64,000 nucleotides of DNA from Mya arenaria (Eukaryota; Mollusca; Bivalvia; Myida; Myidae), in the NCBI RefSeq assembly GCF_026914265.1, contig NC_069133.1, forward strand, positions 49,784,182 to 49,848,181, given 5' to 3'. Shown here in pieces: positions 1,195-51,060 of the stretch. Positions within the stretch are counted from its first letter, which is position 1. Each line of letters begins with the position of its first letter. The notes beneath the pieces are model-generated. The model ran no database searches. It saw nothing but the letters and a program-made list of their open reading frames with translations, and was not told the origin of the DNA. A program made the position numbers and the translations under genes.

Positions 1195-4100
1195 TCATAG
1201 TTTTTCCTTTAATGAAGTCCCTTTTGCAACAAAGCAAATCGATATAGCACCACAGACTGCAGCTAATAAAATACAAACACCTGAAAAGAGAAATACAATA
1301 TGGAATCTTTGCAAAAATATGTAATAATGAAGTTGATAAATATCCATATACAGTCGAACCCCGATGGCTCGAACTTCAAGGGACCGGCGTAAATACCTCG
1401 AGCCTCGGAAAATTCAAGCCAAGCGAGAATGATTACGTTAAGTTTAAAGGAATCGATCCTTAACATTCAGTTCGAGCCAAACAGGAATTCGAGCCAAGCG
1501 AGTTCGAGCCAACGGGGTTTGACTGTACATTAAGTAAAAAATAAGTAGATGTCTTTTATTTATATGTAAGTCAAACAAAACCAACAAAATAGAAAAGATG
1601 CAATCAAACTAAAACTGAAATATAGAATGCAAGTGTTAAAACCAAATCACCTGCAATTGTCATCGACTGGTCATAGGTTCCCCCGGAGTCGACAAGTATG
1701 CCTGAAATGTGGTAATTGGCATACAGACCTTTTTAAAAAATATAAACAAATCCTATAAAAAATGTGTTTTAAAAAGTATGATTATTTATACGAGTAATTA
1801 ACCCTGTTACTATACTCAAACGTATTTGGGTTTTAAGATTAAAGGGGATTTAAATCAGAATACAATCACATAAATCATTATGATGATATTTAAGGAATGA
1901 ATTGCGGGGTTGATGTCATTATCGGGGTATGAACACAATTGGGCTGGTCAAAGTGTGTGGAGTCCGAAGGACTCTACGCGTACTTTGACCAGCCAAATTG
2001 CGTTCATACCCCGATAATGACATCAACCCCGCAATTCATTCCTTAGATTTACACCAATAGTTCATTATTTCATTTAAGAATTGTTAAAAAATACTTCATT
2101 TCATTTAAGAAAACCTTTCAGTAATCCTTTCCTTCCCATTCTGTAAATAGAACGACCCGACTGTTACCGGAAACATGTTTTCAAATGACGTCACAATAAC
2201 GCAGGAAAAGATCAACAACTTAAAAATCACTTTTAAACGTAAAATTGAAACACTTATGGCAAAAATATAGATTTAAAATATTATAAATTTACACTTTCTA
2301 AAATGTTAATATATATTTTACGGGACCTGCTGACGCAATACAAACAAAATCCAGATCAGCAGTTTCCATGTATATTGTTATGCGATGAATTGCGATCCGA
2401 ACATATCCGAAGATGTTGCGTTCATCGATTGATAAACGCAATTGCCGAAAGGCAGTTCATTTAAGGAATGGAAGTTGAGGTGTAACTACATGTATTAAGT
2501 AATAAAACGCATTCGACCTTCGATGTCCTTAAGGACTCATCAAAAGTTAAAACACATCTCACGATGTGAATTATATATTCCTAAGACGAACATTATACGT
2601 TATAATATACTTGCAATTTATCTAACGTCACACAGCAATTATCTCCCTGTGTAGTACCAGTTACCAGTGTTATCAATCAAATCAAGTATTGATATTCAAC
2701 TATGTGACCCTTTTCACATCTTCAACATTTTATTTCATTTGAAATCAATATTGTGTTCTTGCATTTTTACTTTAAATAATTAATTCAAATAATGATAAGG
2801 TAGATATCGCACAACAGGTGATCTGAAAAAAATGTATGTGGCTTAAATTCATCTACTTTCTCATGTGGTGGAAGAGATCTTCTCTACGCATAAGAATGGG
2901 CTTTTTACCTGCAATGACTGGTCCTACAATCGCACCCACTCCTCCAAACATGAATACGAGACCAATCGCGGTAGCAATGTAGTTGATGCCAATAAACATC
3001 AGGGAGACGGTCGTCAAAACAACATAACAAGAGCCTAGAAACATTCCCATAAATATGAAATAAATCAGTTGACCTGCATAGTGTCGAGAAATGAATGGGT
3101 ACACTATTGTTGCTATGGAAAGTATTCCCATTGAGCCGGCGTATAGTATTATCTCATTACGGTTTCGAATGTTAGCCACTACTCCGGTCAAAAGACGACC
3201 AAATACAGTCAATATCCCTGATAAGGAAATTAGAAAGGCTGCCTGATTTTCTGAAAACCCCTTTGTTATTATATATGATGGTAAATGTAAATTCAATGAA
3301 AACGTTGCCGCACAGTTTAAAAACATGCTTATGCAAAGGCAAACTATTCCTTTATTTAACATAATATTAATGTATGGCATTATCCTTCCCTTAAAAACAT
3401 TTGTTCCTTCGAGTAAACGGTCCGAGTCTCTAAGCCTCATTTTATGGGAATACTTCTCCAGTTCACTAGGAAAGCAGAGCATCCCGAATGTTATCAGATT
3501 AACCTGCATGCCTGCACAGCAGATGAAAAACCCTGAAAAGCCGTAAAATTCCTTCGCCATTTGCATAAGAGGTACAAACGCACAAGCCCCGGCTCCGACG
3601 CCAGAAACGGCGATACCAAGAGCAAGATTGCAGCGTCTTTTGAAGTTGAAACCAACAACTACCGTTGCAGCGGTGTATCCAAGAGCACCTCCGATACCTG
3701 CAAATACCAATAAACTTAGAGAAGGCCTTCATTTCTCAAACAATCGTAGGGACCCGTTTAACAGGGTCATACTTAGCTCATTATTTTTGTTTTGGTATAA
3801 ATTGCGTAAACTTCTCCTTTAAAAAAGATTTGAGAAATATTAAAAATAAGCATGATAACCAAGTCGATTTATGATATCAAGTTCTAGCAGTTAATTTGCT
3901 AAATGAATCTGATATGCTAAGATGATTCGGGAATTGGGTATATGTGATTATCTTAAACCTCAATATACGAATGACAATGTAATTGTACATACATTGACAA
4001 AATCAAGAGCCATAAACTGACTATAATCTTGTTAAATGCCACAAAAAGGGAATTCAATAGAGACAAATGAAAGACAGAATGTAGAGAATACAAATATTTC

Positions 4101-5501
4101 AATGTATCACTCATCATTACGAGCAGTCACTGAACTAATCTTAAAGAGAATCACTGTAAAGCATAACGAGAAAGGACATCAGTTCGTTATGTTGATATAC
4201 TTATAACACAAGGTAAAAATGTATAATTAAATTCAATCGAAACGTTATCTAAGCTGATAGCTGTTATATTGGTCTGCATTAATAAAATAAGAAGAAAAAG
4301 AAGAGTCCAATATCATTATGATTGTTAAATCATAAATGTGACGTATTCTGTGGAACCAAACCACAGGTGAACGTGACATTGTACGTGAAATCACGTTGAT
4401 TTTTAAAGCATGGAGTTTTTTAATTTTATTGTCGATATACAAAGAGACGGTAAAACTAATGTACCGCTTAAACATTCAGCGTTTTTAAATACCGTTATAT
4501 ATCGCGTTACGTCATTTTAGCCCGTTGATTAATTTTGCGTCATATAACAAACATAACTCTACAGAAGTTAGACCATGTAACCGAAATATTTATTTACCAA
4601 CAACAATGCCACAGGTGAATATTGCAGCCTCTATACATGTCACAAAGGCGGTCGCCAAATACCCTCCTGTATAAAATAGCCCAGAGAAGATAATGGCAGT
4701 TCTGCAGCTGAACCTGTCAGCCACCGCAGTTGATAGTAAACCTGTAATGATATAAAAGAACAGTTAACTGTGCATATATACAATACCCACTTTAAACGTT
4801 TACGCTTTCGAACCATTTAAATGGATGTATACATGCAAAAGTCAGCCCAAGAACTACAAAACAGTAAATTGCAGTGCAATGCGATACAAGACATTACCCT
4901 AGGCTTGTGATAGACTTCGTCGACATTGTATATCTGAAGGTGTTGTATGTTAACATGGAATTTACACTCATGTTAAGCATATCTTTATGGTTTGCTTGTT
5001 ATTGAAACGGATATGAATGTTGTGTACTATCAGAGAATGAATACTATATTTTGTTCTGATACAAATGACCTTTTTTTACTTACCTCCAAGTAATAGAATT
5101 CCCGTGTGTAATGCACCGACCCAAGCCGTGAGACCGACGCTAGCCTGAAAGCGTTCCAAAAGGGCGTTATGTATGATGCCCGCAGAATACATGGAGCCTC
5201 CGAAAAGAGCAAAACTGAAGAAACTTGCTACCAATACAACCCATGCCCAACCGGTATCGAGATCACTAAATTCAGGTTCGACTTCTTCGTGCTCCATTGA
5301 TTTTTTTTCTCTGAAATCACTTGTTATTCCTGCAGTTCCTGTTTCATCAAGTAACGACTCCACTATGTCGTTTTTATTACAAGCATTTTCATTTAAACTA
5401 AATATCCCTTTGTCAAAACAAGGTCTCATTAAGAGGTGGTTGCTGTCCACGTCATTGTTCTGTGCTAAAGATGAAGTCATAACTGCATCCAAAGTAGACA
5501 T
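1195..5501 (-). CDS. MCT/SLC16-like transporter, gene A (5 exons)
   Basis: Exons, in gene order on the minus strand: 5501-5084, 4741-4598, 3697-2909, 1701-1651 and 1280-1195. They sum to 1488 nt (495 residues plus stop), every intron is GT-AG and in phase 1, and an in-frame stop lies upstream of the ATG. Exon 1 has an acidic cytosolic N-terminus and then DTGWAW (about residues 82-87), the MCT TM1 signature. Exon 3 has FNFKRRCNLALG (about 205-216), the family's TM4-5 motif, and GRLLTG in the TM8 region. Exon 4 encodes ILVDSGGTYDQS, matching the loop before TM11-12. The length fits a 12-TM MFS carrier of the plasma membrane. MCTs move monocarboxylates, thyroid hormone or other solutes; the substrate here cannot be read. 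It is closest by eye to gene E. Introns 3 and 4 hold MITEs. Confidence is high for family and exon structure, low for substrate. Confidence 0.9.
1349..1527. mobile_element. MITE, TA-CAGTCGAAC family, copy 1 (gene A intron 4)
   Basis: Ends TACAGTCGAACCCCGATGGC and, inverted, GGGGTTTGACTGTA make imperfect terminal inverted repeats of about 25 bp flanked by TA, like non-autonomous Tc1/mariner-pogo elements. It is 179 bp long and homologous to the copy at 44953-45136 (shared core TACCTCGAGCCTCGGAAAA). Confidence 0.8.
1888..2484. mobile_element. non-autonomous DNA element with 61-bp hairpin end, copy 1 (gene A intron 3)
   Basis: The left end is a hairpin: arms 1894-1954 and 1982-2042 are reverse complements with about two mismatches, around a 27-bp loop that itself contains a short inverted repeat. 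The other end reads ATTTAAGGAATGGAAGTTGA. The same sequence recurs inverted at 58731-59255, which defines the family. Confidence 0.8.
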
Positions 5502-6165: not shown

Positions 6166-6678
6166 GACGACATTGATAAATAAATCATTCATATTATATA
6201 ATATATATATAGTTTGTACTGTTCTTAAATCACATAAAAATATGTTAACTAGAATATAATTAATGCATTTCTTCATACTCACAAGCTTATTTAACATGAC
6301 ATATAATCATTAATATATTTTTTAAGTATCTAATAATAGCGGAACACTGTAATTATTTTTTTTAAGAACTGAAAAATGTATATTTAAACAAGTTTGTTCA
6401 GGCAAAGAGCTGGTCTAGTCAGAATAACCATTCACGACCAAAATGTCTTAATTATTGAAATAATTCGAGTGTTGACTTCTTTTCACATGTCTGCATATTT
6501 TCCATACCATGGACACATTTTAATCTGCCTTTCCAGGCAACTTCATGCCAGCAACCTTAATGAGTATCTACAAATGTTACGGTTAATCATACAAAGGTCA
6601 ATTCACTGTCTCTTGCAATTTCTTCGCGATTACAGAACAATGCATTTAAATACACGTTTACAAAATTGTTTAATTCAG

Positions 6679-7026
6679 AAATACTAGTCGACTCCGGTGG
6701 AACCTATGACAAGTCGGTAATACTTGCAGGTTATCTAGTTTTACCACATATATTACATTTATTTAAGTGGCAGTTTTCTGGGTTTTTTTTTTTTTAAGAA
6801 TTCTTTTTCTTACTTGACATAAGGAAATTGAAGTGATTACCATCTAACAAATTTCCTCTAAATGAGTTTAATACATCGTACCGATTTGTTGGCTAATGCC
6901 TATTGTCGTTATTCTATAAACTTTGCTGTAGACACTGCAATTTGTTTTCCGTTCTCATGTGTTTGCGTTTTACGTGCACCTGGCTGTGTTGTTTTTTCCG
7001 CCATGCTTTGTTCCCAGAACGACTGA
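6679..7026 (+). pseudogene. relic of a sixth MCT gene: exons 4 and 5 only
   Basis: 6679-6729 matches the 51-nt exon 4 of the neighbouring transporters, with an acceptor AG at 6677-6678. It reads ILVDSGGTYDKSVILAG and stays open, and the next bases are GT. About 230 bp downstream, 6959-7026 aligns loosely with exon 5 (GTGTTTG, CTGTG and TGCTTTGTT in register), but the acceptor AG is gone and the protein is degraded. Exons 1-3 were not found upstream. The relic is on the plus strand, opposite to genes A and B between which it lies. It is a dead partial copy, evidence that the cluster has gained and lost members. Confidence 0.7.
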
Positions 7027-8280
7027 TGCTTAAATTGCGACTGTTGAAAGTCCAAGAAAATGAAGGACTACATTGATGGATACGGATTGTTTGTATTTAA
7101 TCCATTGAGATACCCAATGTCCATAAGCTATTTATACGCTTAACGCAATACCGGTATACGAGCATGTGAGTCAAATGTGAATGTATATACATGTTATGCA
7201 GCTTTGCATATACCAAGTTCGAAGTTCTAACAAGGAATTGTTTAACATGATGTAAAAGTCCTTTTCAGTAGTCTTATTGACCATACGTAAACAAACATGA
7301 CTTTGAAGGACGGCCCCGGTGAGTTCAGTTTGGTAATTCTAGTGTACTTTTTGGTTATCTTAAGAAAAGAAGAAGAAAAACCAAATACAAGTAGACAAGT
7401 GATTTTCCAGTCATTTTTTAATAATTTTCCACTGTCGGTGCCAAGTGAGCCTATCATATGCTTAAAGCGATATATGACAGTTGTATACTGTATTATACAC
7501 GTTGTTTGTCTCTCGGTTTGTGTCTGTATGACCTTGGTCATTGTCCCTTGGATTTAGGTTACATGTTAGGCTACTGTGTGTGTCTCTGTAACGGGTATTG
7601 CTTTAAGTAAAATAAGACAGATCTGGTGAAATGCATGACCACATATCCAATTACGAGTTAAACTCGCACAGAGCGGTGACTTGAGAGTCGACCTCGAGAA
7701 CCAGCAAACGCGGTTTCCACCTAGGATAACTTTTTAAACGAACAGACAACGTTTGAAATCTAGCTAGATTTCAAACTTCACTTGAACTGTATGTCTTATT
7801 GTCGTTTTCTCTGGTTTGTTAACACTGTTTTGTGTGCAATATATTTCATACAAAATATGGACACTTACGTACTTATCAAATACACTTGTATACCTTTTCT
7901 TACATGTAGGTCATCTATGCTGATTGGTATCATTTTGTATCACTTCATTACTTCTGTTTGCATCACATGTCTTCGGTACATATTTCACAATTCTTTAAAT
8001 AAACACTTAACGATTTGTTTGAAACCAATAAGCGATTTTGCACCACAAGATCAGGTTCGGAGGATACCTGTTTCAGCTCGGCTCGCTTATATCATGAATA
8101 TTGTCATTCCAATTGGACCAAATTGAGAGACAACGACGTTCGAAGAGTAACTTCACTGAAAAACGCAGATATTTTTATGAGACAGCCATTAAAAGCACCA
8201 ATACATCCAAAATATTATGCACCAGACTCGGTTGGATTAAAGCTACTCGTCGACAGCTATGATTCATCTCAGTACAATCT

Positions 8281-10043: not shown

Positions 10044-13000
10044 TCACCCAGTTAATTGTATGTTCGTTTTTATACTGCTTGTGCATCCGTTAAAATTGGT
10101 TTCCTTCAAAGTTGTATTTTCTTCGCCAGGTCTTTCAACAGATATGGTATGTATATCCATTTGTTTGGCAACAAAGCAACTCGAAAAACCGCCGCTGACT
10201 GCAGAGATGAAAATGCATATTCCTGAAATGAAAAGTATTTTCTTGTTTAAGACTATTTAAACCCAAAGGAATACGACACAATCTCCTTTCTTAAGTATAT
10301 ATCTAATGAAAAGCGTATGAATATAAAATGACTATGCCACCAAGGTAAGCAATCTTTTCATGGCGCTGAACAAAGAGTTGAAGTCTAAGCGCTGGAAAAA
10401 CCGTTGTTCATTTTAACGGGCAAATGATGTACAATAAGGGAACGGTTGTTATACCAAACATTTGCCAAACATGTGTATGTTTTTGAACGTGTAACTGCAC
10501 CTACATATATTTGTTGCTATTAATATTAAGATTCACGTCCAAGTCCTAATATAACGATATAACAATTTAACATACTTGGATAATACAGCGCGCAAAAAGA
10601 GATGAGAAGCAACTATACGCTATTACCTGCAACAAGCATCGACTGGTCATATGTTCCACCGGAATCGACAATTATTCCTGAAATGTTTTTGTGCGTATAA
10701 AGTAACTTTGATAATTTGTTTGAAAAAACGGGCAGACTTTTCCTGCAAGAAACATTTCGGTGTTCCGTATTTTTACCGAAATACCTTAAAAAAGAAGCAA
10801 ATAAAAGGAAAGTTATTTTTTTATTTATTTGTTCTATTTTAAACATATTACATTTACCCTATCATATTGAGATATTGATAGAAGAACATCTTATAGTTAA
10901 ATGGGTATATCGATATAGCTTGTTGTTGTTGTTTTTTGCTGTTCGGTTCGTAGAAGGTTTAGAAATTTAATTCTGCATACGTCTACCTTTTAGCTTAAAA
11001 CAAATACTTAACCCAATAAACATTTCCATAAAACAGCAAAAGCAGATTGCCATGACAATCATTCATACTGTGGTGTCCATTAAACGGATCACATTGACAA
11101 AAAAAGATGGTAAATACAAAACATATCACTTGTATCTACCTGCAATAACTGGTCCAATGATCGCCCCAACTCCTCCAAACATGAACTGCAGACCAATGGC
11201 GGTTGAAATGTAGTCGATGCCAACAAACTTCAGTGACATGGTTGTAGTTACCACGTAGCAACAGCCAAGGAATATACCCATAAAAGCTATAAACATTAGG
11301 TGGCCTAAATAGTGCTGAGAAACAAATGGATATACCAGTGTTGCTATGGAAACTATTGCCATTGAGCCGGCATAAGGTATAACCTCATTAAAATTTGGGA
11401 TGTTAGCCACTGCACCTGTCAGAAGACGACCTACAACTGTTAATATTCCCGATAAAGACATTAAAGAAGCTGCCTGATTTTCGGAAAACCCCTTTGTTGT
11501 TATATATTTTGGCAAGTGCAAAAATAGCAGGTATGTTCCCGTGCAATAAAAGAACATACTAAGGCATAGACATACTATTCCTTTATTGAGCATTACCTTA
11601 AGATAAGGTACTATTTTTCTTTTTATGGCAATTGAGTGTTGTGCTGAACGTTGTGACTGTTTTTGCCTCAATGTGTGTGAATGCTTCTCCAATTCACTAG
11701 GAAAACAAAGCATTCCAAATGTGACAAGATTTAATTGCATTCCCGCACAGCAGATGAACAATCCTGTAAAGCCATAAAAATCCTTTGCGAACTGCATAAT
11801 AGGAGCAAATGCACAGAGTCCGACCCCAACACCGGACAAAGCGATACCAAGAGCAAGGTTCCGGCGTCGTTTAAAGTTGAATCCAACCACAACCATAACC
11901 GCGGTGTAACCAACAGCACCCCCAATGCCTGGAAAGGAATGATAAAAGATAAGACCAATGACGATTCATATCATAAAATAACGCCTATATAGAACATCTG
12001 ATTACTCTTTCGTCTGAAACGTTAAATACAAAGTATGTTAAAAAAAAACAGTTCAATAAATAACACATCAACTACTTAAACAACGACAATCAGTTGTTTA
12101 GGAAAGGTATCATAATCTTCTCTGATGGGAGACTGAGCACAAAAATCATTTCCAAATGTAGTTCCGAAGTTGGAATGATGTCAATATGTCTTTAAAAGTA
12201 TATGTTAAATCCATTGCCAATCAAATCTAAACTTCTACATCGTTAATATGTTTTTGATTTATATATATATAGCACATATATATTCAAAAACACATTGTAT
12301 TGGAACATAAAGTTAATGTTAAGACTGAGCAGTATACCCTTTTATAATGGTGTGGTTTTAACGGTGGTATAACGGTAGGTCACGGTGTCAGTTGAGGGCA
12401 GTTCACACAAAATAGGTTTGGTTAATCACTACAAGGATTTTTTATCATGAACTTTTAAGATGAAGACATTTCTTAATTATATCTAAGAAACGGACTCAAG
12501 TGTTATCATTGAAGCTTAAGCTTAATGAAATAAGTATGAACTAATATAGTAAAATACTTTGGACGAATAGCACCATAAAACATATAAAACATATTTGATA
12601 TGAAAAGGGAAATCCATGTAAATGCATGAATTAAAGTATGTATCATCTCACTGAGAGAAAAGGTGCTGGACAATATTGAATTGTGTATGCATATAATATA
12701 AATAATAAACAGAACATGATAATATATCACGCCATATGTTAATTATTAAGCAGAAATGTAGCAAACAGGTAGTGAACAAGTAAGAGTAAAGTGTTACCGA
12801 CTATAATACCACAGGTGAATATTGCAGCCTCTATACATGGCACAAACGCTGTCGCCATATAGCCAACGGTGTAAATAAGTCCCGAGCAAACAATGGCAGT
12901 TCTGCAACTAAATCGATCAACCACCGCAGTTGATAGGAGACCTGCAACCATACAAAATATACTTTTTACAATTTTATGTATTGTAACGGTTGCTACAATA

Positions 13001-16000
13001 CAATTCGGTCAATATTGAACCAATATGTTTTACATTTAAAATGAAAACAATCATATAGATGTAATGAAATAATGATAAGAAGTCGAGTGCAGAACGATTT
13101 ATGCTGGTAAATGATTAATACATTTAACAAAATCAAACATTTAAGTTATACACACTTCATATTCAGCGTTTATTTCTAATTTTAACCAGTGATATAACCT
13201 ACATTACCCTAATCTCGTTACTTACTTAGTTTTAAATGTTAAAAGAATTAATGACGAAAATGGGTTAGATCAAAAGGAATTGCAAAACACAAGTATATAA
13301 AAAAATGTTTTTTGTTCATTGACATCAGAAATTATAAAATGACAGAGATGAATTCATACTCAATACATCGTGAAAATTCATTAAAATGCAGTTTAGAAAC
13401 ATTTAAATAAATTGTTAAATAAGTGGAAATACCAAATTCTGTAAGATAAATTTGGATTTTGAAAGTGTGCTCATGGAACGGGTCAGGTAGCTATGGAAGA
13501 GTACATTAACAATCAAATTGTGGAAAAAAACTGCCCCTTTCGCCTTGGCCAAGTTCTATAGTCCTTAGTAACTGCTGACGGAATGCCTTTTAAAACCATG
13601 AGATGATTTTGTACACATATATGACGACAATGCAACACTTCAAAGTCTAACATGAGTACCTGATACATTCGAAGTGCAGGCTGACATATTGATTCAATTC
13701 AGTCATGTTAATGCAAAAAGACCTAGGCAAATATTTTTTCATATCTGGTCCAAAAACAGGAACTCCTTCGGTCTGGAAGGCTTTTTTTTGGAAACAATGA
13801 CACCTCACCTAACTGTTTTGTCTACTTTTCGACCAGTTGAAAATTGACAACTTTACAGAAAAGCTTTGTGACCGCCGCTGTTTTTGTCAAAACAAGAGGC
13901 AGACACCGTCATTGTAAGATCTCCAAACACGGATGTCGAAGTGCTGCGATCATAGTATTCCAGGATTTTGTTCCATACGGCTGTAGGTAACAAGCGGCGA
14001 CTTTTTTATGCTAATGATATTGCTTAGAACAAATGGAAAGCTGTTTGTTCAGTAGTTCTTGCCATTTAATGCTTCACAAGGTATGATTCAACAATGGCGT
14101 CCCTTTCAATCCTAGAAAAGAACCTATACCAATACCACATAGCTTCACTGTCTAAACTTGGTCACATTCTTCAAAGGCATCGAACGCTTTGTCGGTTGAA
14201 TGGTAAATAAAAATATACACAGGTAAATATATTGAGATATGACACATTCTGCAAAAAGATTAAGGTTCCTCTCCAGACTTGTATTACAGTATAAACATTA
14301 GTTTTCTGCCGCCATGTAGGGCATCCAGTGAAATGCAGGATCACATGGTTAACTATCAAATGTACGTCTTGCCTCACTTTCATGGAAATTACCCACTACG
14401 ACTTCAATATATACAATGTAGTGTTAAACAAGTGGACAAGTGATATTGTTTCACAAGAAATTAATTAAATATTGTGTACTAATAAAGACGTAAAACACAT
14501 TTACTCGGGGAAAGATGATGACGTACTATGGCTTGATAACATGGTTTACATCGTGTTTGAAAAGGAATCTGATACAGACTAGACCAGGCTGTTGCTATAT
14601 TGCGAGAACATCGGTTTAAAAATAAAACGTGAAATAAATGAGGTTACTTGACTTCATTGAAGATTGCAGATTTTTTATCAAAATAATATATAATTTTATG
14701 CACGTGTAGACATATTTTTTTTCATTTAAAGTATGCATAATTGGTAAGGTGTATAAGTAAAGCAATATTTGTCACGTATATGACACATAATGTTAATGAA
14801 TGTCATATTGTTTATGATTAGTAGATGTAAACGCTCACATTTTTTCGAGGGTGTACAACATATTTCTAATCAGTGTTTTAACATAATTTGTACAATTATT
14901 AAATAGTTGCATTGTCAGTGATATTCTTGTTTATAGTGGTTACGTCAACTACAATTCAAATATACAATATTATATCCGTTTTAGAATGTAATTGATATTT
15001 CCAGTCCTATAACATAAAATATTTCGGAGTGTTGTGTTATCTAGTTAAAATGTCAAGTCATATTATTTAAAAGTGAAGTAACCTATTTTATATGCATATT
15101 GGTATTTTTGTCATACATCTTGAAAGTTTAGAGTCGCTAATGTTTTGCAATAAAAACTTGCATAACATAATAAACTTGTGATAAACTTGTGGTAAAAGTG
15201 TATAGTCAATATTATAGTCCTGTTTAGTTTAAAATTACTTGTAAAACACTTTTTTAACGGAAAGTAACGGATTCTACATGTACATTTATCAGAATATGTA
15301 ATTAGTTTTCGTAATAATGTTTGTAGTTTGCTTTTGTTCAATGAGAAAAGATCATTGTACGGATATGATTGCAAAATTACGACGAATGCTCACTGTAGGC
15401 ATTGTTTGTTTCATATGCATATACAAGCAACATATTGTTCTAGAGTGTGACGTAATATAAATGTGAAGGTTTAACATTGAAACCAAACTTTGCATTTTGA
15501 CTTATTCATCAGAACTGTCTGAAGTAAAATCCAAGTTGAAGTTTTCTCCATAAAATCAATGCAGATTATTTTGATATTTGGCAAGTTTTGAAATAACGTG
15601 TATAAAAGTATTATTAGCCATGTGAAAATTGTTTTTAATAGTTGAATTTCAAAATGCTGTAGTTTCCAAACGCCCCAACGGCCAAGGCGTAAACATGTCT
15701 CAAAATGTTAAAAAGATGATACACTTTCAAAAAATCATGGTCTACAAAATTGCCTCTGGGGGGAGCAAAACCATTTTTTCTCTCATAGTTTATAAGATAA
15801 GCTCATATATTTTGTTCCGGCATAACTTGTGTAAAAGCGATATGTTGAAAGGTTTGCCGATTTGTAGCATCAATAATATCAGAAAACACAATGACACCTA
15901 CCTCCAAGTGAAAGAATACCCGTGTGTAATGCGCCAACCCAAGCCGTGAGAGCGACGCTAGACTGAAATCGTTCCAAAAGGGCGTTATGTATAATTCCCA

Positions 16001-16310
16001 CGGAATACATGGATCCCCCGAGAAGAGCGAAACCTAGGAAGGTTGCAAGCAAAACCATCCATGCCCATCCAGTGTCAAGATCACTAAATTCCGGCTCGAC
16101 ATCTACATCGGATGCATTCTCAATTAATTGTAACTGTATTCTTTTCAAGTCATTTTTTGATTCTGACAATCCTAAATCATAAAGTAAAGCATCAGTTTCC
16201 GGCTCTTTTTCACTATTTTCTCTTAAATCCAATATTCCTGTGTCAAAATGTTGTCCCATTGTGTGCCCTGTGCTGTCCATGACATTGCTCAATGAACCCG
16301 ATGAATTCAT
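10044..16310 (-). CDS. MCT/SLC16-like transporter, gene B (5 exons)
   Basis: Exons on the minus strand: 16310-15902, 12941-12798, 11928-11140, 10677-10627 and 10222-10044. They sum to 1572 nt, 523 residues, with all introns in phase 1. The start is fixed by an in-frame TAA two codons upstream. Exon 1 carries DTGWAW after an acidic N-terminus, exon 2 DRFSCRTAIV, exon 3 FNFKRRRNLALG and GRLLTG, and exon 4 VDSGGTYDQS. The cytosolic C-tail after TM12 is longer than in A or C (about 40 residues, containing SVERPGEENT). Intron 1 is nearly 3 kb, the longest in the cluster. It is a plasma-membrane MFS carrier by family; the substrate is unknown. Its tail is the reference that exposes the displaced tail of gene E. 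Confidence 0.9.
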
Positions 16311-18260: not shown

Positions 18261-18376
18261 CTACTCAACAGCTGTAGTAGTAACATCCATTCTCTTTGTA
18301 ACAAAGCAATTGGAAATTGCTCCACAGACTGCAGCCATCAAAATGCAAACTCCTAAAATGAAGATATCCATATTAA

Positions 18377-18444
<68 letters not shown>

Positions 18445-21400
18445 AACAGCTCGCATCAACAACCATACGAGCTACAGATGAAAACTTTACAGTAAAACTT
18501 ACGGTTACGTTGATGAAAATAATCATTGTTGCATACAATTACAGTTTATCCAAGTAAAGCACAATTGTAATACTTGAAATAAAAAATGTACTTGTCCAAT
18601 TTGAAAAGTATTTATACGGAAAAAAGAAGTAATATCGATATTTGTGCAATGTAGTAGCAACACTAAATTACCTGCAACGATAACGGAATGGTCATAGGTT
18701 CCACCGGAATCCACAAGCGTTCCTGAAATGTTCGACCATAGACATACGGGTTAACAATACTTTCCAAATACGCAATGTGTGAAAGGCGCTTATGGCACTG
18801 TGTTAAAGTCATTAAGTCCTTTATGTCATACGGTGTATAAATATATTTCATAGAAGGAAATGCAATTAATCGTGCCAAAAACGTTAAATAACGCTAATAT
18901 ATAAAAATGCATTTTTTAAACTCAAATAATAATGTTCTAATACCTGTCACTTATTACCTGCAATAACCGGCCCTACGACCGCTCCCACTCCACAACACAT
19001 AAACTCGAGACCAATCGAGGTTGCAATGTAGTCGATAGCAACAAACTTCAGGGACACGGTAGTCGTGACAACGTAACAACATCCAAAGAAAAGACCTAAG
19101 GATATTGTGAACACTATGTGGCCTATATAGTGCCGAGAAACAAATGGGTACACTATCGTTGTTATGGCAATTATTGTCATGGATCCGGCGTAAACAATGG
19201 TTTCATTACAGTTTGGATTGTTTGCCACAATTCCGGTTAAAATACGACCTACTACTGCCAAAATACCTATTAAAGATACTAGATAAGCTGCCTGATGTTC
19301 CGAAAATCCTTTTGTTGTTATATATTTCGGCAAGTGTAAGAAAAGCAAATACGTCCCTGCACCGTACAAAAACATACTTAAACACAAACAAACGATTCCT
19401 TTATTAAGCAAAACATTCAGGTAAGGTGTCACTCTTCTTTTGAAAATATTTTTGTTCCGTATTGAAGATTCCTTGTCTCTTTGTCGAATTTTATTGGCAT
19501 GGATCTCCAATGCACTGGGAAAACAAAGCATCCCGAGGGTCACTAGATTAATTTGCATACAAGCGCAACAAATAAAAAACCCTGAAAAGCCATAAAAATC
19601 CTTTGCCATCTGCAAAATAGGGGCAAATGCACAGAGTCCAATTCCACTTCCGGACAGAGAGATGCCAAGGGCAAGGTTACGACGTCGTTTGAAGTTAAAA
19701 CCAACAACCACCATTACCGCGGTGTATCCAAAGGCACCTCCGATGCCTATAAATAAGAACAAAGGGTGAAACCAACAACCACCATTACCGCGGTGTATCC
19801 AAATAAATAAGAACAAAGGGTGATATAAAACATGACGTAGTGATGCGTATTTTATTGAAAAAAGGCTAATGATAAAATGAATATGAAAATGAACACAATT
19901 TTATGAAATATACATCTTGTTTCTTAAATACAGTGTGTTGGTCGTTCTAAGGAAACTTAAGTGCAAATTTCAAACATTAGCGAAAGGTTTATGAGTTTAA
20001 GTTTAAAAAGAGGTGACAGTTATATATTTCAGGCATACGGTTTAAATTAAATTTAATCAAAACTTCAAGTATAATATAAAGAAAACGGGGCATAAAATGA
20101 AAAGTTGATTTAAACAATTGGTGCCGGAAAAAAAATGAAGACATATATGTGTGGCTTTCAAAAAAACCACGGTTGCCGCTCAACACATTAAATGCTCAAA
20201 TAAGTATCATAGCTTTTAATAAGAAAGCCATCCTTTCTGATAGTTTATCCTTCAAATCATTAGTAATTCTGAATTAATTAAATGGGTTTGGGTAGGAAAT
20301 TTGATATCTTGAGGATAAACAAAGGTGATCATACAATCTTTAGACCAAGTTTTTTAACTATATTTGGACTTAACAGCCTGAATTTCGAATCAGAGTGACA
20401 AATATTTAGTATACAAACATTACAAAAACCGAATAAAACAAACATTCTGACATTTCAATATCATTTTAAAAAAATAATATATTGTTTTGACCGACATCAC
20501 CATTTTTATTTCTGGACTGGAATATAATCAAGCACATTTTGATCGGATTAACATTTTTAGTTTTATATTAGACCAAATGACCTGCGTTTCAGCTCAAAAA
20601 TACAAACTAAATCTAGAACGCATAGTGACCAACACTTCTTCCAAGTTGCATTCACATTGGGAGAAGTGGTTTGTCAAGCACTTAACACGGTGAACAAGAT
20701 GTTGACCAAACATGACCCATGATTTAATATATTTAGCAAGTTAATAAAAAAAAATCAAATGTATGCAATAAGGTTTTGGTGGCATTATACAAATTGTTCA
20801 TACTATTGAACAGATTAAGTCTGACTAATGACGCGCAAATATAACAAAGTTTTATAACTTAATGCTTAATAGCTATTTAGAAATACATTACTGACAAAGG
20901 ACAAGTGCGAAAACATTTATGTTAAACATGGACAGCAAGAGCTTGGATGAGCAAATACATTAAGCGTAACTTTATGGCAGAAAGAAATGTGACTGTTTTA
21001 CCGACGATAATGCCACAGGTAAATATTGCAGCCTCTATACATGGCATAAACGCTGTCGCCATATAGCCAACGGTGTAAATTAGTCCCGAACAAATGATGG
21101 CAGTTCTGCAGCTGAATCGGTCAACCACCGCAGTTGATAGGAGACCTATAATTATAAAACGATAATTCAAGAAAAAAAAACGATCGGTATTTTCGATTTC
21201 ACCAGCAAACACTATTACCAATACAGTTTTCAGATATGATACAAATTTCGAGAAAAAATTAATTCGTTACAGCCATATATCGAAACACACAAAGGGTACT
21301 TACTACCGAGTGAAAGAATACCCGTGTGTAATGCGCCTACCCAGGCCGTGAGGGCGACGCTTGCCTGAAAATGTTCCAACAGGACGTTGTGTATGATGCC

Positions 21401-21733
21401 CACAGAATGCATGGAGCCTCCGAATAGACCAAAACTTAGGAAAGCTGCAAACAAAATAACCCAAGCCCATCCTGTGTCAAGGTCAGCAAAGTCTTGCCTA
21501 TCTTCTTTAACTGGTGCATTCTCATAAGATTTCATTCCTTTTAAATCTCTTTTTAATCCTTCTGATTCCATATCAAGAAGTAAGGTTTCTGTGTCCGGAT
21601 CGTTTTTGCAATCCAGTTCCCGTAAATGCAGTACTTCCTTTCCACAAGAAGGTAAGCGTTCTGTGTTGCCCATGTCATTAATTAGTGTGCGAGTTAAATT
21701 CATAGCAGAATCCGTAGATGTCGATTCCTTCAT
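18261..21733 (-). CDS. MCT/SLC16-like transporter, gene C (5 exons)
   Basis: Exons on the minus strand: 21733-21304, 21145-21002, 19746-18958, 18722-18672 and 18352-18261. They sum to 1506 nt, 501 residues, all introns in phase 1. An in-frame TGA three codons upstream supports the start. DTGWAW, DRFSCRTAII, FNFKRRRNLALG, GRILTG and VDSGGTYDHS appear in the same order as in A and B. The exon 1/2 junction codon is AGT (Ser) where A, B and E have Gly. A 34-bp piece of exon 3 is duplicated in intron 2 (see 19751-19822), and intron 4 holds an (AT)n run. It is a 12-TM MFS carrier by family with unknown substrate. The short C-tail ends soon after VTKRMDVTTT. Confidence 0.9.
18379..18441. repeat. (AT)n microsatellite, gene C intron 4
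   Basis: About 31 TA dinucleotides, close upstream of the last exon of gene C in gene orientation. Isoleucine/tyrosine-rich open frames across it are artefacts. Confidence 0.98.
19751..19822. repeat. partial duplication of exon 3 start into gene C intron 2
   Basis: About 34 bp of exon 3 (AACCAACAACCACCATTACC, then GCGGTGTATCC; original near 19697-19732) recurs at 19769-19802. It is framed by a repeated intron segment AATAAGAACAAAGGGTGA at 19751-19769 and 19805-19822. The acceptor at 19747-19748 is not duplicated, so splicing should not be disturbed. Confidence 0.85.
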
Positions 21734-30363: not shown

Positions 30364-30536
30364 CCAGTGAAGGCGGGATTTTACAGTATTTTTTAAACCG
30401 AAGAAAAATATATAGTTTATGTGTCTACAACATCTAGGTCTATCATAGGGCTGCTATTTACCACTTTTCAGACATCTGGATAGTTGGGGATTCCCTACCA
30501 TATTGGGGTGGCGTCCGGGCGAGGGACACGGGGAAA

Positions 30537-34652: not shown

Positions 34653-34668
34653 ATGGAAGACGGGCTAA
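34645..34668 (+). promoter_or_regulatory. upstream ORF overlapping the start of gene D
   Basis: ATG at 34645 opens a seven-codon frame (ending TAA at 34666-34668) that overlaps the presumed start ATG at 34653 in another frame. Such overlapping uORFs usually reduce translation of the main frame. Relevance depends on where transcription starts. Confidence 0.4.
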
Positions 34669-40149: not shown

Positions 40150-43100
40150 ATGAAAAGTATGGATGCTGATATGACTTCACATTTCGTACAGAGTAATAAC
40201 GTGGACAACAAGGAACACCTAGAAAGACCTTGTTCTGACAAAGGGAGGTTGAGTTCAAATGAAAAGGTCTGCAAGAAGGAGTCCGTATTGGAAGCGTTAC
40301 TTGGTGAGAAAGAAATTTCAGGATCTACAAGTGATTTAAAAGAAAGAAGATCGATTGAGAACGATGATGACGAAGTCGAACCTCAATTTAGTGACCTTGA
40401 TAGTGGATGGGCATGGGTGGTTTTAGCTGCAAGTTTCTTAAGTTTTGCCCTCCTCGGCGGCTCTATGTATTCCGTGGGCATCATACACAATGCTCTTTTG
40501 GAACGATTTCAGGCTAGCGTAGGTCTCACGTCATGGGTTGGTGCATTACACACGGGAATTCTTTCACTAGGAGGTTAGTACAAAGTTTGTTATGTTTATC
40601 AAAATGGAACGAAATACTTATTTTATGATGCACATATAACACTGTAGTTCGGCTAAATAGCAAGCAAAACATCAAGATAATCGTAGCCATGGCGGATAAA
40701 TTCCTGTTTAGCATTCAACGTATTATAATTTGTTCGTAATTTAAAGGAAAAGTATCGTTTATCTAGAGCAATAACTTATATCGCATTGCACTGTGCTTAA
40801 CATTACGTGCATATCATGACAATATAACCATAACATATCGCGTTATAACAAGTTATGATACAATATGAATGTGTCAATTTTAAACCAATGTAAATGCACC
40901 AAGTATTGCTTGGAAAATGAAACAGTAGGTTTAGAATGAGCAATATATGTCTGGCATAACGGTTACTCTACATGAGAATTGAAGGTCGCACGTTCTATGT
41001 CAAAGGGTTTCCTTTTTGTTACAACGTGATGGTTTTTTTCGAGCATAACCAAGTATACTCCAGGTGAATACGTATTTTACTGATCGTTCTAAGGCCATTA
41101 CACCAACACTGATTGATAAAGCTATGCTTATACTAGTGTGGAATATCAGATATGTGTTTGGATATCTTTTGTATTTCGTTTAGTGTCTTTTGGGCCAGAG
41201 CCTTGTGTCACCAAACCTGTTTTTGCTTCCAGTTTTTACTGATAGGCTTGTCCCTGTAGTTTTCTTTGTAGTATTTAGAAAGAATTATAACTTATATAGA
41301 TTGCAAAGAATGATTTCTATGTAAAAAAATGAAAAGTTAAAGGGTAAACATATATTGTTTGCCTTAGTGTTATAACCACATATAATATTTATGTACTTGA
41401 TTTGAGTTCGAATATGACATTTAAACAAATCGTTATGTAATTGCAGGGCTGCTATCGACTGCGATGGTTGATCGGTTCAGCTGCAGAACTGCCATTATCT
41501 TCTCTGGGATATTTTACACTGGAGGTTATTTGGCGACAGCGTTTGTGCCATGTATAGAGGCTGCACTATTCACATGTGGCATTGTCGCTGGTATATAAGC
41601 ATTTCTTATTAAAGGTCAATCTTCTGTAAAGCTATATATAATTATATATAATGTTATGTCATATCACGTTGAGGTGTTATCATCCTCGTAGGCACTGGTG
41701 GTATCGATTTTGCTGTAATTATAAAAGTACAGCTTAGTGCTGGTTGTTAAATCTCCTTACATAATGTTATTCAAGAAGAAAGCGCGTAAGTCCTTAATAT
41801 AGTCTATATAAACAGCCGCTTCAGAGTCTTTGATAATTTTTGTGTTGGCGACTCTTCGCGTCCATATACCACTTGTTGTTTTCCTAGCCAAGATCCCAGC
41901 GCTAAGTATATTTAGCGCAAAGATAACGCGCACCTGTTCCGGTTAAACTCCACTAATAAAATGCGCATTTGAAATCAGGTAGTCATCTTCAGGTAAGGGC
42001 ATCAATATTTGATAAAAATGTGAACACATATAAATAAGGTTTTTTAAAAAGCTTTAATAAAACAAATACATTTATATATATACTAATCAGGAAAACAGTC
42101 GAAAAAGAATCAACCTTATGAATAATGTGTCAAGAATATCGATGTCCCAACAGGGGAGGTCACTGCGTAGGATAAATATACTAATAGTGGCTAACCCAAT
42201 ATGGCAGTGAAAAGTTGACAGAACCCGATCAGCGTCAGTTTATCATGGAAAACTTAAGTTATAAATAAAAGGTATTAACCAGTATATCATGTATGTGTCT
42301 CTTTTATGTTTTCTTTTAACAATTCAGTGTTGTTGAAATATAATAGTCTAATATTTTATTTTACACTGGTATAAATAAATCGACTTGTGGCGTTATAGGG
42401 AACACAATAATTATCCAAATGTTAAAAAACGTTCCCTAAACGCACATTATTGTGGCTAGTCCTTAATCTAGCCTAAAATATAACAATAAATCCGATAATA
42501 CTAGAAGTACGATCATAACATGACTATAAATTTTATCCTTTATAATATTATAATGGAGGGAAATTCTGCACTTGTACGAGTTAAATATACGTATCTGAAG
42601 GCGATCAAGCAATTTCTGACTTCAGCATAAGAGCCATGCTTTGCTAAGACTACTATTAAAATAGTTTAAGTGAAATTTTCGAGGTGGTAGTTCCCATAAT
42701 AATACTGATCAAGGTGATAGTATGTTTTTGGCTTAGTTAGTGAATACTAAAGTAGACAACTAAATCTTACACTTACTCAATTTCATTTTTAAAGTTTTTG
42801 CAATTACAGTGTCATCCTTATATTAAGGTATTAGATAATTATCTACTTTTAGTTTCAATCTAAACACATCCACCATCTCCGCAATACGACGAGACTCGTG
42901 TATACGGCGATGCATTAGTGAAGGTAGTTCGTAAAACTGATAAGAATAATATAAATAAATTGTAGTGTTTCAACATGTTATTTTACTATCGAGTTCAAAT
43001 TGATTCCCAGTAAAGTGTATTATTGCAAAAAATCATTAAGATTCTAAGAGTTAAGTTCTTAAGCTAAACTGTTAAATTGAAATTGCTATGAGATCGATTT

Positions 43101-45049
43101 GCAGTGTTGTTAAATGTACGGAAGTCTTTCATTGTAATCTATCAATAATTATCTGAGGTTGTTCCGCATGAAAATGACCGAGATGCTCCAATTGCCATGT
43201 GTTTTTTGTATGTTGTAGGTATCGGTGGCGCTCTTGGTTACACAGCCTCAATGGTGGTTGTTGGTTTCAACTTTAAACGACACCGCAACCTTGCTCTTGG
43301 TGTATCAATGTCTGGCGTCGGAGTGGGTGTCTGTGTGTTTGCTCCTGTAATGCAGATGGCGAAGGAGTTTTACGGCTACACGGGGTTTTTCATCTGCTGT
43401 GCGGGCATGCAGATTAATCTAGTCACTTTTGGAATGCTCTGCTTTCCCAGTAGCCTGGAGAATTATTCCCATACTATGAGACTAAGAGACTCAGGTCGTT
43501 TACCCCAAGATACAAATGTTTTCAAGAGGAGAGTAATGCCGTACGTTAATGTAATGCTCAACAAAGGAATAGTTTGTCTGTGCTTTAGTATGTTTTTATA
43601 CTGTGCAGCAACGTTTTTATTATATTTGCATTTACCAACATATATAACAACGAAAGGATTTTCAGAAAATCAGGCAGCTTTTCTAATCTCCTTATCAGGA
43701 ATATTGACAGTAGTTGGTCGTTTTTTGACCGGATTACTAGCTAATATTCAACACTGTAACGAGATTGTTCTTTACGCCGGTTCCATGACGATAGTTTCCA
43801 TAGCAACAATAGTGTACCCATTTGTGTCTCGACACTATGTGAGTCACTTAATGTATGTAATATGTTTGGGGTTGTTCCTGGGTTCGTGTTATGTTGTGTT
43901 GACGACCGTCTCCCTGAAATTTGTTGGCATCAACTACATTGCTACCGCGATTGGTCTGGAGTTCATGCTTGGAGGTGTTGGAGCGATTGTAGGGCCAGTC
44001 ATCGCAGGTAAGTTGGCAAATATTCTACGCAGTTATCTCCCTTGATGAGCAGCCAAAATTTCTTAAGTTTCTTATAATAGGATCAAGCTGAGAACACTAT
44101 TATTGTATTGGTATAAAATGTCTCAAGTTCTTATTGTGAATTGTTCTTATTGTTTCAAAGGAAATTATGAGAGTAATTTTATATCATTTCTTTTATTTAA
44201 GATATGTCATTCTTTTAATATGTGACTACGGACATCGAAGTACGGAGTATATCTCTGCGTTATGAATATGTTTACTGGCTTATCTTTTTCAACCCTATGT
44301 TTTAATAAACCTACCGTTTTCGTTTAAGTATGCGAAAAGGGCATTTATTAGCGTATACATACAGAACAAAACATTACAATATCTGTATATCAAATTGTCA
44401 ATTTCAGGTATACTTGTCGACAACGGGGGAACTTATGACCAATCGGTGATAGTTGCAGGTGATATGGTACTTCTACCATATTTTAATGTCAGTTTTTCGC
44501 GTTACGATTTTATTTTAAGTAATTTAGTTTTAAACTTATGTCGAGTTTGACTTCACCGAAGAAAGTGGTTCAGATCTACTAAATTTCTCCCAAATGTGTT
44601 TGGATGTCTGTTGTTGACTTATAAACGTTTCGTTATTATTGTATATTTGAAGTATGTATTTTTTCGTAATTATTATATATTTGACTATGTCTTTTTCGTT
44701 ATTATTCAATATTTGACTATGTCTTTTTCGTTATTATTCAATATTTGACTATGTCTTTTTCGTTATTATTCAATATTTGACTATGTCTTTTTCGTTATTA
44801 TTCAATATTTGACTATGTCTTTTTCGTTATTACTATATTTTTGCCTTAGATTCTATAATGGGTTCCTGTTTTCTAGGTGGTTGCATTTTAATGGCTGCAG
44901 TCTGTGGTGCGTTTTCGGTTTGCTTTGTTGCAAAAAGGACGGATGTGAATACTACATTCGAACTCCGTGTTCTCGAACTCCCTAGGAACGTTGAAAATAC
45001 CTCGAGCCTCGGAAAAATCGATCCAAGCGGAAATGCTTACCTTCAGTGA
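40150..45049 (+). CDS. MCT/SLC16-like transporter, gene E, with MITE-derived C-tail (5 exons)
   Basis: Exons: 40150-40573, 41447-41590, 43219-44007, 44408-44458 and 44877-45049. They sum to 1581 nt, 526 residues, all introns in phase 1. ATG 40150 aligns with the start of gene A (MKSMDADMTS versus MSTLDAVMTS), and the 5' flanks of A and E also align. DSGWAW, DRFSCRTAII, FNFKRHRNLALG, GRFLTG and VDNGGTYDQS give the family. The last 31 residues and the stop codon are read from a MITE (44953-45136) inserted after the DVNT codons; transmembrane segments are unaffected. Intron 4 carries a 32-bp tandem repeat. It is a 12-TM MFS carrier, substrate unknown, and the closest relative by eye is gene A in inverted orientation. 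Confidence 0.9.
44632..44836. repeat. 32-bp tandem repeat, about 6 copies, gene E intron 4
   Basis: Unit ATATTTGACTATGTCTTTTT followed by CGTTATTATTCA. The middle copies are identical and the first and last are degenerate. It ends about 40 bp before the last exon. Confidence 0.95.
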
Positions 45050-45136
45050 AAAGAAATCGCTCCTTTACATCCCATCCAATTCGAGCCAAGGAGGAATTCG
45101 AGCCAAGCGGACTCGAGTCATTTGGGTTCGACTGTA
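44953..45136. mobile_element. MITE, TA-CAGTCGAAC family, copy 2 (inside gene E last exon)
   Basis: Starts TACATTCGAACTCC and ends GGGTTCGACTGTA, with TA on both sides, 184 bp. It shares its core with the copy at 1349-1527. Its first 97 bases are read as the C-terminal tail and stop codon of gene E. Confidence 0.85.
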
Positions 45137-45685
45137 TGTTTGTTGAAAACCATGGCGAAGAAAAGCTATTTTAAAAGATGGATACTGAAATGAATTCTTA
45201 TATTCAACAAGATAACCAATGATCACATTAAATTAGCATGCTTAACACGGTGCCGATATATAAGTCTAAAAGTCAGATTGTGAGCTTTGAATCTGGAACT
45301 TGTATGAAATTCGGGAATCTTACGACTTCTTGTTCAAAATAATGTGAAAATCCTTTTCAGTTGTGTTGATCTAACACAAACATGATGTTGAATTTGTAAT
45401 CCGGTGATAGCATCTGTGTGAGATTGAATAAGATGATGTTATTTTTAGTTACGTTTGCTATCTTTTGACATTGTATGTTTCTTACTTAATGTCTGTTTCG
45501 TTTCATACACGTACACAATATATGATAAAGAAAACAACAAAGAAACAGAAGCAGTGCAATGTAGCATTGTTTACGTTCATATAATAAACACATGCAAAGC
45601 GATTGGGCCACGAGTCTGTTTTGTGTTGATCCGCATGCATCTTAACAGGTTCATGTGTGAGTGTCTTGCTACTAGGCTTGTCCCG

Positions 45686-48200: not shown

Positions 48201-48987
48201 GTGAGTTTTTCGGCGATTTAAAATTTTGGAAGCCAGTTTAGACACTGGCATATTGTGAAAAACCTGCTAGAGAAAATTCCACACCCATTGGTACTTGGAT
48301 CTCCATGAAACATGCTGTAGTTTTGTCAAACATTCGGACATCGGCATCGACTCGAGAGGAAAACGAACTAAAAGGCACGGCTAAGGTTAGGATCCCTCGA
48401 TAATATTGGCCTGTTTTGACGATTAGCAACACTATTCATGATTGTTGTGTCAAGTTGGTGCAATATAAATGTGTATTGATCAAAAGTTATCCGTCTAGAA
48501 ACCCGTAATGACGCATTTGCTTCAAAATTAGTATTTATGCACAATGCTAAGGAGCAGTGCACGCAAATAAGTGGCTAAGGTTAGGTGCCATTTATTGAGA
48601 GAGGCGTTCATTACATACGGTAATTTTGTTTCCTGTTTGTATCTGTTCTTTCTGAGAGATTAAAGGTTTCCGTAACACTGTGCGACATCATCATTATCCA
48701 GATGAGGTATTTTGAAACTGCCAAATCTGATTTCGCTGCGTTTTCATCTAGATACAGTTGAGAAAAAACTACAGTGACGCGATGTTGTGGATGAAAATCG
48801 TCTGTTTTGAACCGTAATGTTTAAGTAGAAGGTTCTTAATGATCTAATAAACAGACTCTTGAACAAATAATATTGATCTTCCTAGACCACCTTTAAAATT
48901 TATTTGTATGTAACACTATAAAAAAGTTACCAAACCTCATAAGTTAAAACGTGTCTTTTTTCTTTGCAGTGTAAACACAAGTACAAG

Positions 48988-51060
48988 ATGGTGCGCCAGA
49001 AGTTGTCTCTTGGGCGGTATACCAGAAAAACAAAACATCGACGGTTTCGGACATCAGGTACTTGCTATGTACTACATCTATCAAATGTTTCTAAGCGCAA
49101 ATGGACCAAAACACCAATTAAGTCTCCCTACAAGAGCCCGTTATACACAGCTCGGCATTTTTCACCTGCAAAGACAAAAGTGAAAGTCGCCCGTCCTCTA
49201 TTTGGACCGTCTATTGAATGCCTGACAGATGCGGAAAGTTCATCAATGGATAATGCTGACCTTGAACTAATTTTGCCAAATCTGCCAGAGGAAAACAGTT
49301 CAGTGCCAGAGGAATACTACAATTCAGTGCTAGAAGAAAACAGTTCAGTGCCAGAGGAATACTACAATTCAGTGCTAGAAGAAAACAGTTCAGTGCCAGA
49401 GGAATACTACAATTCAGTGCTAGAAGAAAACAGTTCAGTGCCAGAGGAATACTACAATTCAGTGCTAGAAGAAAACAGTTCAGTGCCAGAGGAATACTAC
49501 AATTCAGTGCTAGAAGAAAACAGTTCAGTGCCAGAGGAATACTACAATTCAGTGCTAGAAGAAAACAGTTCAGTGCCAGAGGAATACTACAGTTCAGTGC
49601 TAGAAGAAAACAGTTCAGTGCCAGAGGAATACTACAGTTCAGTGCTAGAAGAAAACAGTTCAGTGCCAGAGGAATACTACAATTCAGTGCTAGAAGAAAA
49701 CAGTTCAGTGCCAGAGGAATACTACAATTCAGTGCTAGAAGAAAACAGTTCAGTGCCAGAGGAATACTACAGTTCAGTGCTAGAAGAAAACAGTTCAGTG
49801 CCAGAGGAATACTACAATTCAGTGCTAGAAGAAAACAGTTCAGTGCCAGAGGAATACTACAATTCAGTGCTAGAAGAAAACAGTTCAATGCCAGAGGAAT
49901 ACTACAGTTCAGTGCTAGAAGAAAACAGTTCAGTGCCAGAGGAATACTACAATTCAGTGCTAGAAGAAAACAGTTCAGTGCCAGAGGAATACTACAATTC
50001 AGTGCTAGAAGAAAACAGTTCAGTGCCAGAGGAATACTACAATTCAGTGCTAGAAGAAAACAGTTCAGTGCCAGAGGAATACTACAGTTCAGTGCTAGAA
50101 GAAAACAGTTCAGTGCTAGAGGAATACTACAATTCAGTGCTAGAAGAAAACAGTTCAGTGCTAGAGGAATACTACAATTCAGTGCTAGAAGAAAACAGTT
50201 CAGTGCCAGAGGAATACTACAGTTCAGTGCTAGAAGAAAACAGTTCAGTGCCAGAGGAATACTACAATTCAGTGCTAGAAGAAAACAGTTCAGTGCCAGA
50301 GGAATACTACAATTCAGTGCTAGAAGAAAACAGTTCAGTGCCAGAGGAATACTACAATTCAGTGCTAGAAGAAAACAGTTCAGTGCCAGAGGAATACTAC
50401 AATTCAGTGCTAGAAGAAAACAGTTCAGTGCCAGAGGAATACTACAGTTCAGTGCTAGAAGAAAACAGTTCAGTGCCAGAGGAATACTACAGTTCAGTGC
50501 TAGAAGAAAACAGTTCAGTGCCAGAGGAATACTACAATTCAGTGCTAGAAGAAAACAGTTCAGTGCCAGAGGAATACTACAATTCAGTGCTAGAAGAAAA
50601 CAGTTCAGTGCCAGAGGAATACTACAGTTCAGTGCTAGAAGAAAACAGTTCAGTGCTAGAGGAATACTACAGTTCAGTGCTAGAAGAAAACAGTTCAGTG
50701 CCAGAGGAATACTACAGTTCAGTGCTAGAAGAAAACAGTTCAGTGCCAGAGGAATACTACAATTCAGTGCTAGAAGAAAACAGTTCAGTGCCAGAGGAAT
50801 ACTACAATTCAGTGCTAGAAGAAAACAGTTCAGTGCCAGAGGAATACTACAATTCAGTGCTAGAAGAAAACAGTTCAGTGCCAGAGGAATACTACAATTC
50901 AGTGCTAGAAGAAAACAGTTCAGTGCCAGAGGAATACTACAATTCAGTGCTAGAAGAAAACAGTTCAGTGCCAGAGGAATACTACAATTCAGTGCTAGAA
51001 GAAAACAGTTCAGTGCTAGAGGAATACAATTCAGCGCCAGAGGAAAATACTGCTGGTTAG
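48988..51060 (+). CDS. acidic 15-residue-repeat protein (coding minisatellite)
   Basis: A single coding exon of 690 codons follows an acceptor at 48968-48969. Residues 1-100 or so are basic and unique (MVRQKLSLGRYTRKTKHRRF, then SPYKSPLYTARHFSPAKTK), followed by a Ser/Asp linker. The rest is 38 copies of ENSSVPEEYYNSVLE (45 bp) and a degenerate last unit, ending EENTAG. Each unit splits into related 7- and 8-residue halves. No signal peptide or membrane segment is seen. The repeat is strongly acidic and tyrosine-rich and is probably disordered. Variants among copies are only N/S, P/L and one V/M. I do not recognise the family. The unique basic head open on this strand, the splice signals and the acidic repeat favour plus-strand coding, although the array is open on both strands. 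Confidence 0.6.
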   Translation: MVRQKLSLGRYTRKTKHRRFRTSGTCYVLHLSNVSKRKWTKTPIKSPYKSPLYTARHFSPAKTKVKVARPLFGPSIECLTDAESSSMDNADLELILPNLPEENSSVPEEYYNSVLEENSSVPEEYYNSVLEENSSVPEEYYNSVLEENSSVPEEYYNSVLEENSSVPEEYYNSVLEENSSVPEEYYNSVLEENSSVPEEYYSSVLEENSSVPEEYYSSVLEENSSVPEEYYNSVLEENSSVPEEYYNSVLEENSSVPEEYYSSVLEENSSVPEEYYNSVLEENSSVPEEYYNSVLEENSSMPEEYYSSVLEENSSVPEEYYNSVLEENSSVPEEYYNSVLEENSSVPEEYYNSVLEENSSVPEEYYSSVLEENSSVLEEYYNSVLEENSSVLEEYYNSVLEENSSVPEEYYSSVLEENSSVPEEYYNSVLEENSSVPEEYYNSVLEENSSVPEEYYNSVLEENSSVPEEYYNSVLEENSSVPEEYYSSVLEENSSVPEEYYSSVLEENSSVPEEYYNSVLEENSSVPEEYYNSVLEENSSVPEEYYSSVLEENSSVLEEYYSSVLEENSSVPEEYYSSVLEENSSVPEEYYNSVLEENSSVPEEYYNSVLEENSSVPEEYYNSVLEENSSVPEEYYNSVLEENSSVPEEYYNSVLEENSSVPEEYYNSVLEENSSVLEEYNSAPEENTAG
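49290..51060 (+). repeat. 45-bp tandem repeat, 38 full copies
   Basis: Unit begins GAAAACAGTTCAGTGCCAGA and is 45 bp, a multiple of three, so the array stays open in the coding frame and on the other strand. Copies differ at only a few sites (AAT/AGT, CCA/CTA, one GTG/ATG). The near-identity points to recent expansion or continuing homogenisation. Confidence 0.97.

Follow-up and report, generated by a model that had tools for sequence, protein, structure and literature searches.

The 64-kb window (the whole stretch of DNA that was analysed), which is eukaryotic in character by its intron-bearing genes, contains a cluster of MCT-like paralogues, here called A, B, C and E, of which A (5501..1195), B (16310..10044) and C (21733..18261) lie on the minus strand and E (40150..45049) lies on the plus strand. 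The spliced model of E is open over 526 aa and comprises the exons 40150-40573, 41447-41590, 43219-44007, 44408-44458 and 44877-45049, with GT-AG at its introns; the last coding exon (44877..45049, plus strand) follows the acceptor TTTTCTAG, begins with GTGG and ends in a TGA at 45047-45049. All four genes share a common five-exon plan, in which the inner exons (144, 789 and 51 bp) are of identical length. E matches Pfam MFS_1 (1.4e-28), its top match among solved structures was an MCT2 structure (9l0b; E = 1.7e-34, residues 80-478), and the top 12 of the 14 matched structure chains were MCT1, 2, 8 or 10. By homology over the MFS core, E is an SLC16/MCT-like transporter, in which a simple hydropathy scan predicted 11 transmembrane segments (11 also in A and B, 12 in C). 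Core dN/dS lies between 0.18 and 0.24 in all 6 pairs among A, B, C and E, a signature of purifying selection on the transporter core in pairwise comparison, and A is the nearest gene to E by silent change (dS 0.56, against 0.87-1.03 in the remaining five pairs).

Several other features were noted in the window. A more distant MCT-like gene is found at 34614-37518 (plus strand), the large exon of which matches MFS_1 (3.9e-19) and has about 24% identity to E there. Consecutive frames at 27961-31013 (plus strand) gave reverse transcriptase, phage-integrase-like and GDSL-lipase-like matches (in the integrase-like frame the N-terminal SAM domain is above the cut-off and the catalytic domain just below it; the GDSL-lipase-like match is also below it), and these frames together look like a DIRS-type retroelement. 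A reverse transcriptase fragment at 32307-32999 (minus strand; RVT_1 1.5e-25) is LINE-like by its look, and a long frame of tandem EENSSVPEEYYNSVL repeats occupies 48943-51060 (plus strand), the other strand of which also has long open frames. Intron 4 of E contains a tandem array (44628-44832), in which a 32-bp unit recurs 6.3 times with 94% matches.

The last coding exon of E runs into a MITE (44953..45136, plus strand), which measures 184 bp including both TA copies, and the 180 bp between the TAs leave no room for a transposase. It was recognised from its TIRs, a second copy and an empty site that is seen mainly in B. The TIRs are imperfect (TACATTCGAAC/GTTCGACTGTA, 91% complementary over the 11 outer nt). 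The second copy (1349..1527, plus strand) sits within intron 4 of A in antisense orientation to that gene, 68 bp away from the start of its last exon; it aligns with the E element in blastn at 3e-34, with 143 of 178 aligned bases identical. Both copies are bordered by TA on either side. A duplication of only 2 bp is by itself weak evidence of a TSD, and the match of the MITE-free exon of B backs the duplication of the TA. Because a second TA-flanked copy is present in A, the E element can be regarded as a dispersed TA-specific MITE. A pattern built from the core common to both copies, allowing as many as 3 mismatches, found only these two sites in the 64-kb window, against a chance expectation of 0.03. 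Three patterns searched in viral contigs gave 0, 0 and 1 locus, and one pattern searched in genome contigs gave 0 loci. The single viral locus (L001) had an 18-base exact match, the rest being short scattered pieces, and was taken as a chance match. Since only one other copy is known, the age and the consensus of the MITE are rough. When the left and right ends of each copy were compared over their first 30 bases, 18/30 were identical in the E element and 25/30 in the copy in A; the decayed ends of the former suggest that the insertion in E is not very recent. The element probably belongs to the Tc1/mariner superfamily or is of pogo type; CAGTCGAACC presumably resembles pogo/Tigger ends, and of 18 papers that contain this string none is about transposons, going by titles.

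The reading frame of E crosses into the element with the ACA codon 44954-44956, of which the first base is still part of the TA. From this codon on it encodes TFELRVLELPRNVENTSSLGKIDPSGNAYLQ, up to the TGA at 45047-45049. The MITE-derived coding sequence (44954..45046, plus strand) thus amounts by translation to 31 residues (TFELRV...AYLQ). A run of 31 open codons would arise by chance with a probability of about 0.21 given the composition of the element and 0.10 given that of the window. A second forward frame of the element is open over its full length as well, so the open run is not remarkable.

Directly after the right TA, the DNA reads MFVENHGEEKLF (45136-45171) in the pre-insertion frame, followed by a TAA (45172-45174). 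This displaced tail (45136..45174, plus strand) is colinear with the last coding exon of B (10044..10222, minus strand), which is free of a MITE and is the counterpart of the insertion site; the two flanks in E, joined at the TA, align colinearly to that exon, where DIHT is followed by ISVERPGEENT and the sequence runs further on to NIQLTG and a stop. The local alignment score of the post-element DNA against B was 36, a value reached by 0/2000 and 0/5000 shuffles. When both strands were divided into 638 tiles of 200 bp, scores above 27 occurred only in E's own tile (120) and that of B (36).

Three further counterparts of the site are MITE-free. The last coding exon of C (18261..18352, minus strand) ends in the tail RMDVTTTAVE and a stop, that of A (1195..1280, minus strand) in GTSLKEKL and a stop, and a further MCT paralogue, the decayed copy F (6677..7110, plus strand), comprises an exon-4-like piece (ILVDSGGTYDKSVILAG) and a last-exon-like piece with no MITE at the matching place (tblastn match 6681-6743, and a weak one with an in-frame stop at 6995-7051). 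For their post-site sequences the local score was reached by 320/5000 shuffles in F (6955-7130), 637/5000 in A and 2215/5000 in C. In an end-free alignment, 3 random window segments reached the value of B, 23 that of F, 102 that of A and 583 that of C, each from up to 3000 draws, of which those near the element were skipped and those touching the paralogues were kept. By these scores the case for an old tail is carried mainly by B, with weak support from F and A and none from C, the post-site sequence of which matches no better than chance, although its exon, too, lacks the MITE. When aligned, the A tail GTSLKEKL ends near EEKLF of E, which is suggestive only.

The architecture proposed in the preliminary description, a single TA insertion of a MITE that replaced the C-terminal end of E with 31 residues and a TGA of its own, was supported by the TIRs, the flanking TAs, the sister copy and the translation, and the old tail was found where it had been placed, directly behind the right TA with its stop at 45172. 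The displaced ancestral tail had been aligned with the tail of B. The post-element DNA does match B, but the tail of B is 22 residues longer than had been quoted and the tails of A and C are different again, so the tail of B cannot simply be equated with the ancestral one.

For the transcript, splice matrices were derived from the same genes (16 donors and 16 acceptors). Inside the last exon of E, no donor-like site by which the MITE could be skipped scored above 4.1 (44907, 4.1; 44945, 4.0), compared with 5.9 for the weakest true donor (n=16); the GT at 44877-44878 scored 6.3, but the exon opens with this very dinucleotide and its use leaves no exon. Downstream acceptor-like sites scored 4.9, 5.5 and 8.5, the weakest true acceptor being 8.7 (n=16). 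The AG scoring 8.5 precedes 45649, and the donor of exon 4 itself could pair with it, replacing the whole last exon; this join would lose the conserved GCILMAAVCGAFSVCFVA, with which the last transmembrane segment ends and which E shares with A, B and C. An ATTAAA (45227) and an AATAAA (45583) both lie 3' of the element and the old tail. Given the low donor scores and poly(A) signals past the old tail, the simplest predicted transcript would take in the whole element together with the old tail, and the 87 bp of MITE that follow the TGA and precede the nearest ATTAAA (45050..45136, plus strand) would be 3' UTR if transcribed.

We propose that a MITE insertion replaced the tail of E and left the old one stranded past the new stop, and that it was tolerated in a weakly constrained cytosolic tail (probability roughly 0.83). 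After the split of E and A, a TA-specific MITE would have inserted into the last coding exon of the MCT paralogue E; translation would then leave the last transmembrane segment, read RTDVNT, continue into the 31 element codons and stop at the TGA within the element, and the 12 old codons with their TAA would have become 3' UTR. Nonsense-mediated decay is not expected where the stop codon sits in the last exon, and as this holds for the new stop of E its transcript should escape it. Because the insertion lies past the last transmembrane segment, the transport core would be unchanged, and the earlier claim that the core remained intact agrees with the open frame of 526 aa. After CFV[AT]K, gene A encodes 8 further residues, B 39, C 10 and E 37 (E would have 18 without the MITE), and of these four genes only E carries a MITE in its tail. 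The cytosolic tail thus looks weakly constrained in this cluster, MITE or no MITE, and the insertion may have survived for this reason, A, B and C each having a tail of its own.

The insertion might instead be private or segregating, or E might be on its way to becoming a pseudogene. The sequence represents one assembled haplotype, as this explanation would allow; on the other hand E is open over 526 codons, its splice sites are paralogue-like and core dN/dS is 0.18-0.24 in its three pairs, and a very recent insertion agrees poorly with an element that differs from its sister copy and whose two ends have also drifted apart. We regard this explanation as unlikely. Somewhat less likely still is a main effect at the transcript level, with the part of the MITE that remains in the 3' UTR giving rise to small RNAs or lowering translation, by analogy with rice Ghd2, for which a 3' UTR MITE with small RNAs or reduced translation is mentioned in a review (PMC8616336). 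The 87 bp of element behind the stop and the antisense MITE copy in intron 4 of A would be in line with such an effect, but the RNA fold of the element showed no gain in stability over shuffles (z -0.50; 68/200 shuffles were at least as stable).

The adoption of the MITE-derived tail for a function, e.g., the sorting of E to another membrane, could be read from the fact that the 31 codons stay open despite the decay of the element (18/30 end identity, compared with 25/30 in the copy in A). Against this stand the unremarkable open run and the variation of the tails in all four genes, as well as the comparison of the two MITE copies: within the coding part of E they differ at 7, 8 and 7 sites of the three codon positions (31 sites each), and differences are not rarer there (22/93) than in the remainder (17/85). 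With other gap costs the values were 6/31, 7/30 and 6/31 for the codon positions and 16/85 for the remainder. The even counts lend adoption no support, a single comparison being weak evidence, and adoption appears improbable. The preliminary description had further suggested that the tail swap may have altered localisation through a trafficking signal. This was not supported, as A, B and C, which have no MITE there, have differing tails as well and the MITE codons bear no sign of selection in the single comparison of the two copies; inspection by eye for a dileucine, a YxxPhi or a PDZ-type end revealed none in either the old or the new tail. A functional change of transporter E is so far not supported, and the stronger proposal that the adopted tail gives E a localisation or a partner different from those of its tandem paralogues, i.e., one-step neofunctionalisation by a TA insertion, seems very doubtful. 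It is equally hard to believe that the MITE is absent from the protein, since splicing it out through the weak donors at 44907 or 44945 would use sites below any true donor, and a join of exon 4 to the near-threshold acceptor before 45649 would drop the conserved GCILMAAVCGAFSVCFVA.

The replacement of the tail of E by a MITE belongs to a well-described class of events, in which transposon insertions alter the end of a protein. Among the matches listed for MITE-derived protein ends and bivalve MITEs, no title concerned an MCT tail. For the gene cluster, a lineage-specific expansion of MCT (SLC16) genes, partly by tandem duplication, has been described in the bivalve Sinonovacula constricta (PMC11939762); it resembles the A/B/C/E cluster in its tandem MCT genes, and a bivalve tandem expansion of this kind would fit the cluster. 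For the element, Tigger transposons are reported from 8 mollusc species, with TA duplication and short TIRs (15-25 bp in intact copies) (PMC9219625, PMC7386202). The TA target duplication and the short TIRs are common to pogo/Tigger and the MITE in E, whereas the latter is a 180-bp non-autonomous copy without a transposase by which it could be placed, and no full-length element was noticed in the window. Ds1 exonisation, as presented in PMC5432752, concerns intronic elements that bring splice sites.

A close parallel is offered by the wheat 5-formyltetrahydrofolate gene, in which the miniature element Mariam in exon 6 shortens the frame by a stop (PMC6824096). As in E, a miniature element within a coding exon supplies the stop, and Mariam too has a few further copies in its genome; it differs in that it is described there as lacking TIRs, in its position in exon 6 and in its occurrence in two wild emmer accessions, while the element in E has TIRs and TA ends and affects the terminal tail only. 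More generally, TE sequence is said to be common in last exons (review PMC8616336), and E likewise has an element that is part coding and part 3' UTR. It differs from such last exons in general, as outlined in that review, in that the original tail is readable behind the element by way of a neighbouring paralogue. The element, its sister copy, the MITE-free site in a paralogue and the abandoned tail together form a before-and-after record within one 64-kb window, and the E locus provides a convenient natural tail swap with which to ask whether the tails in this transporter cluster matter.
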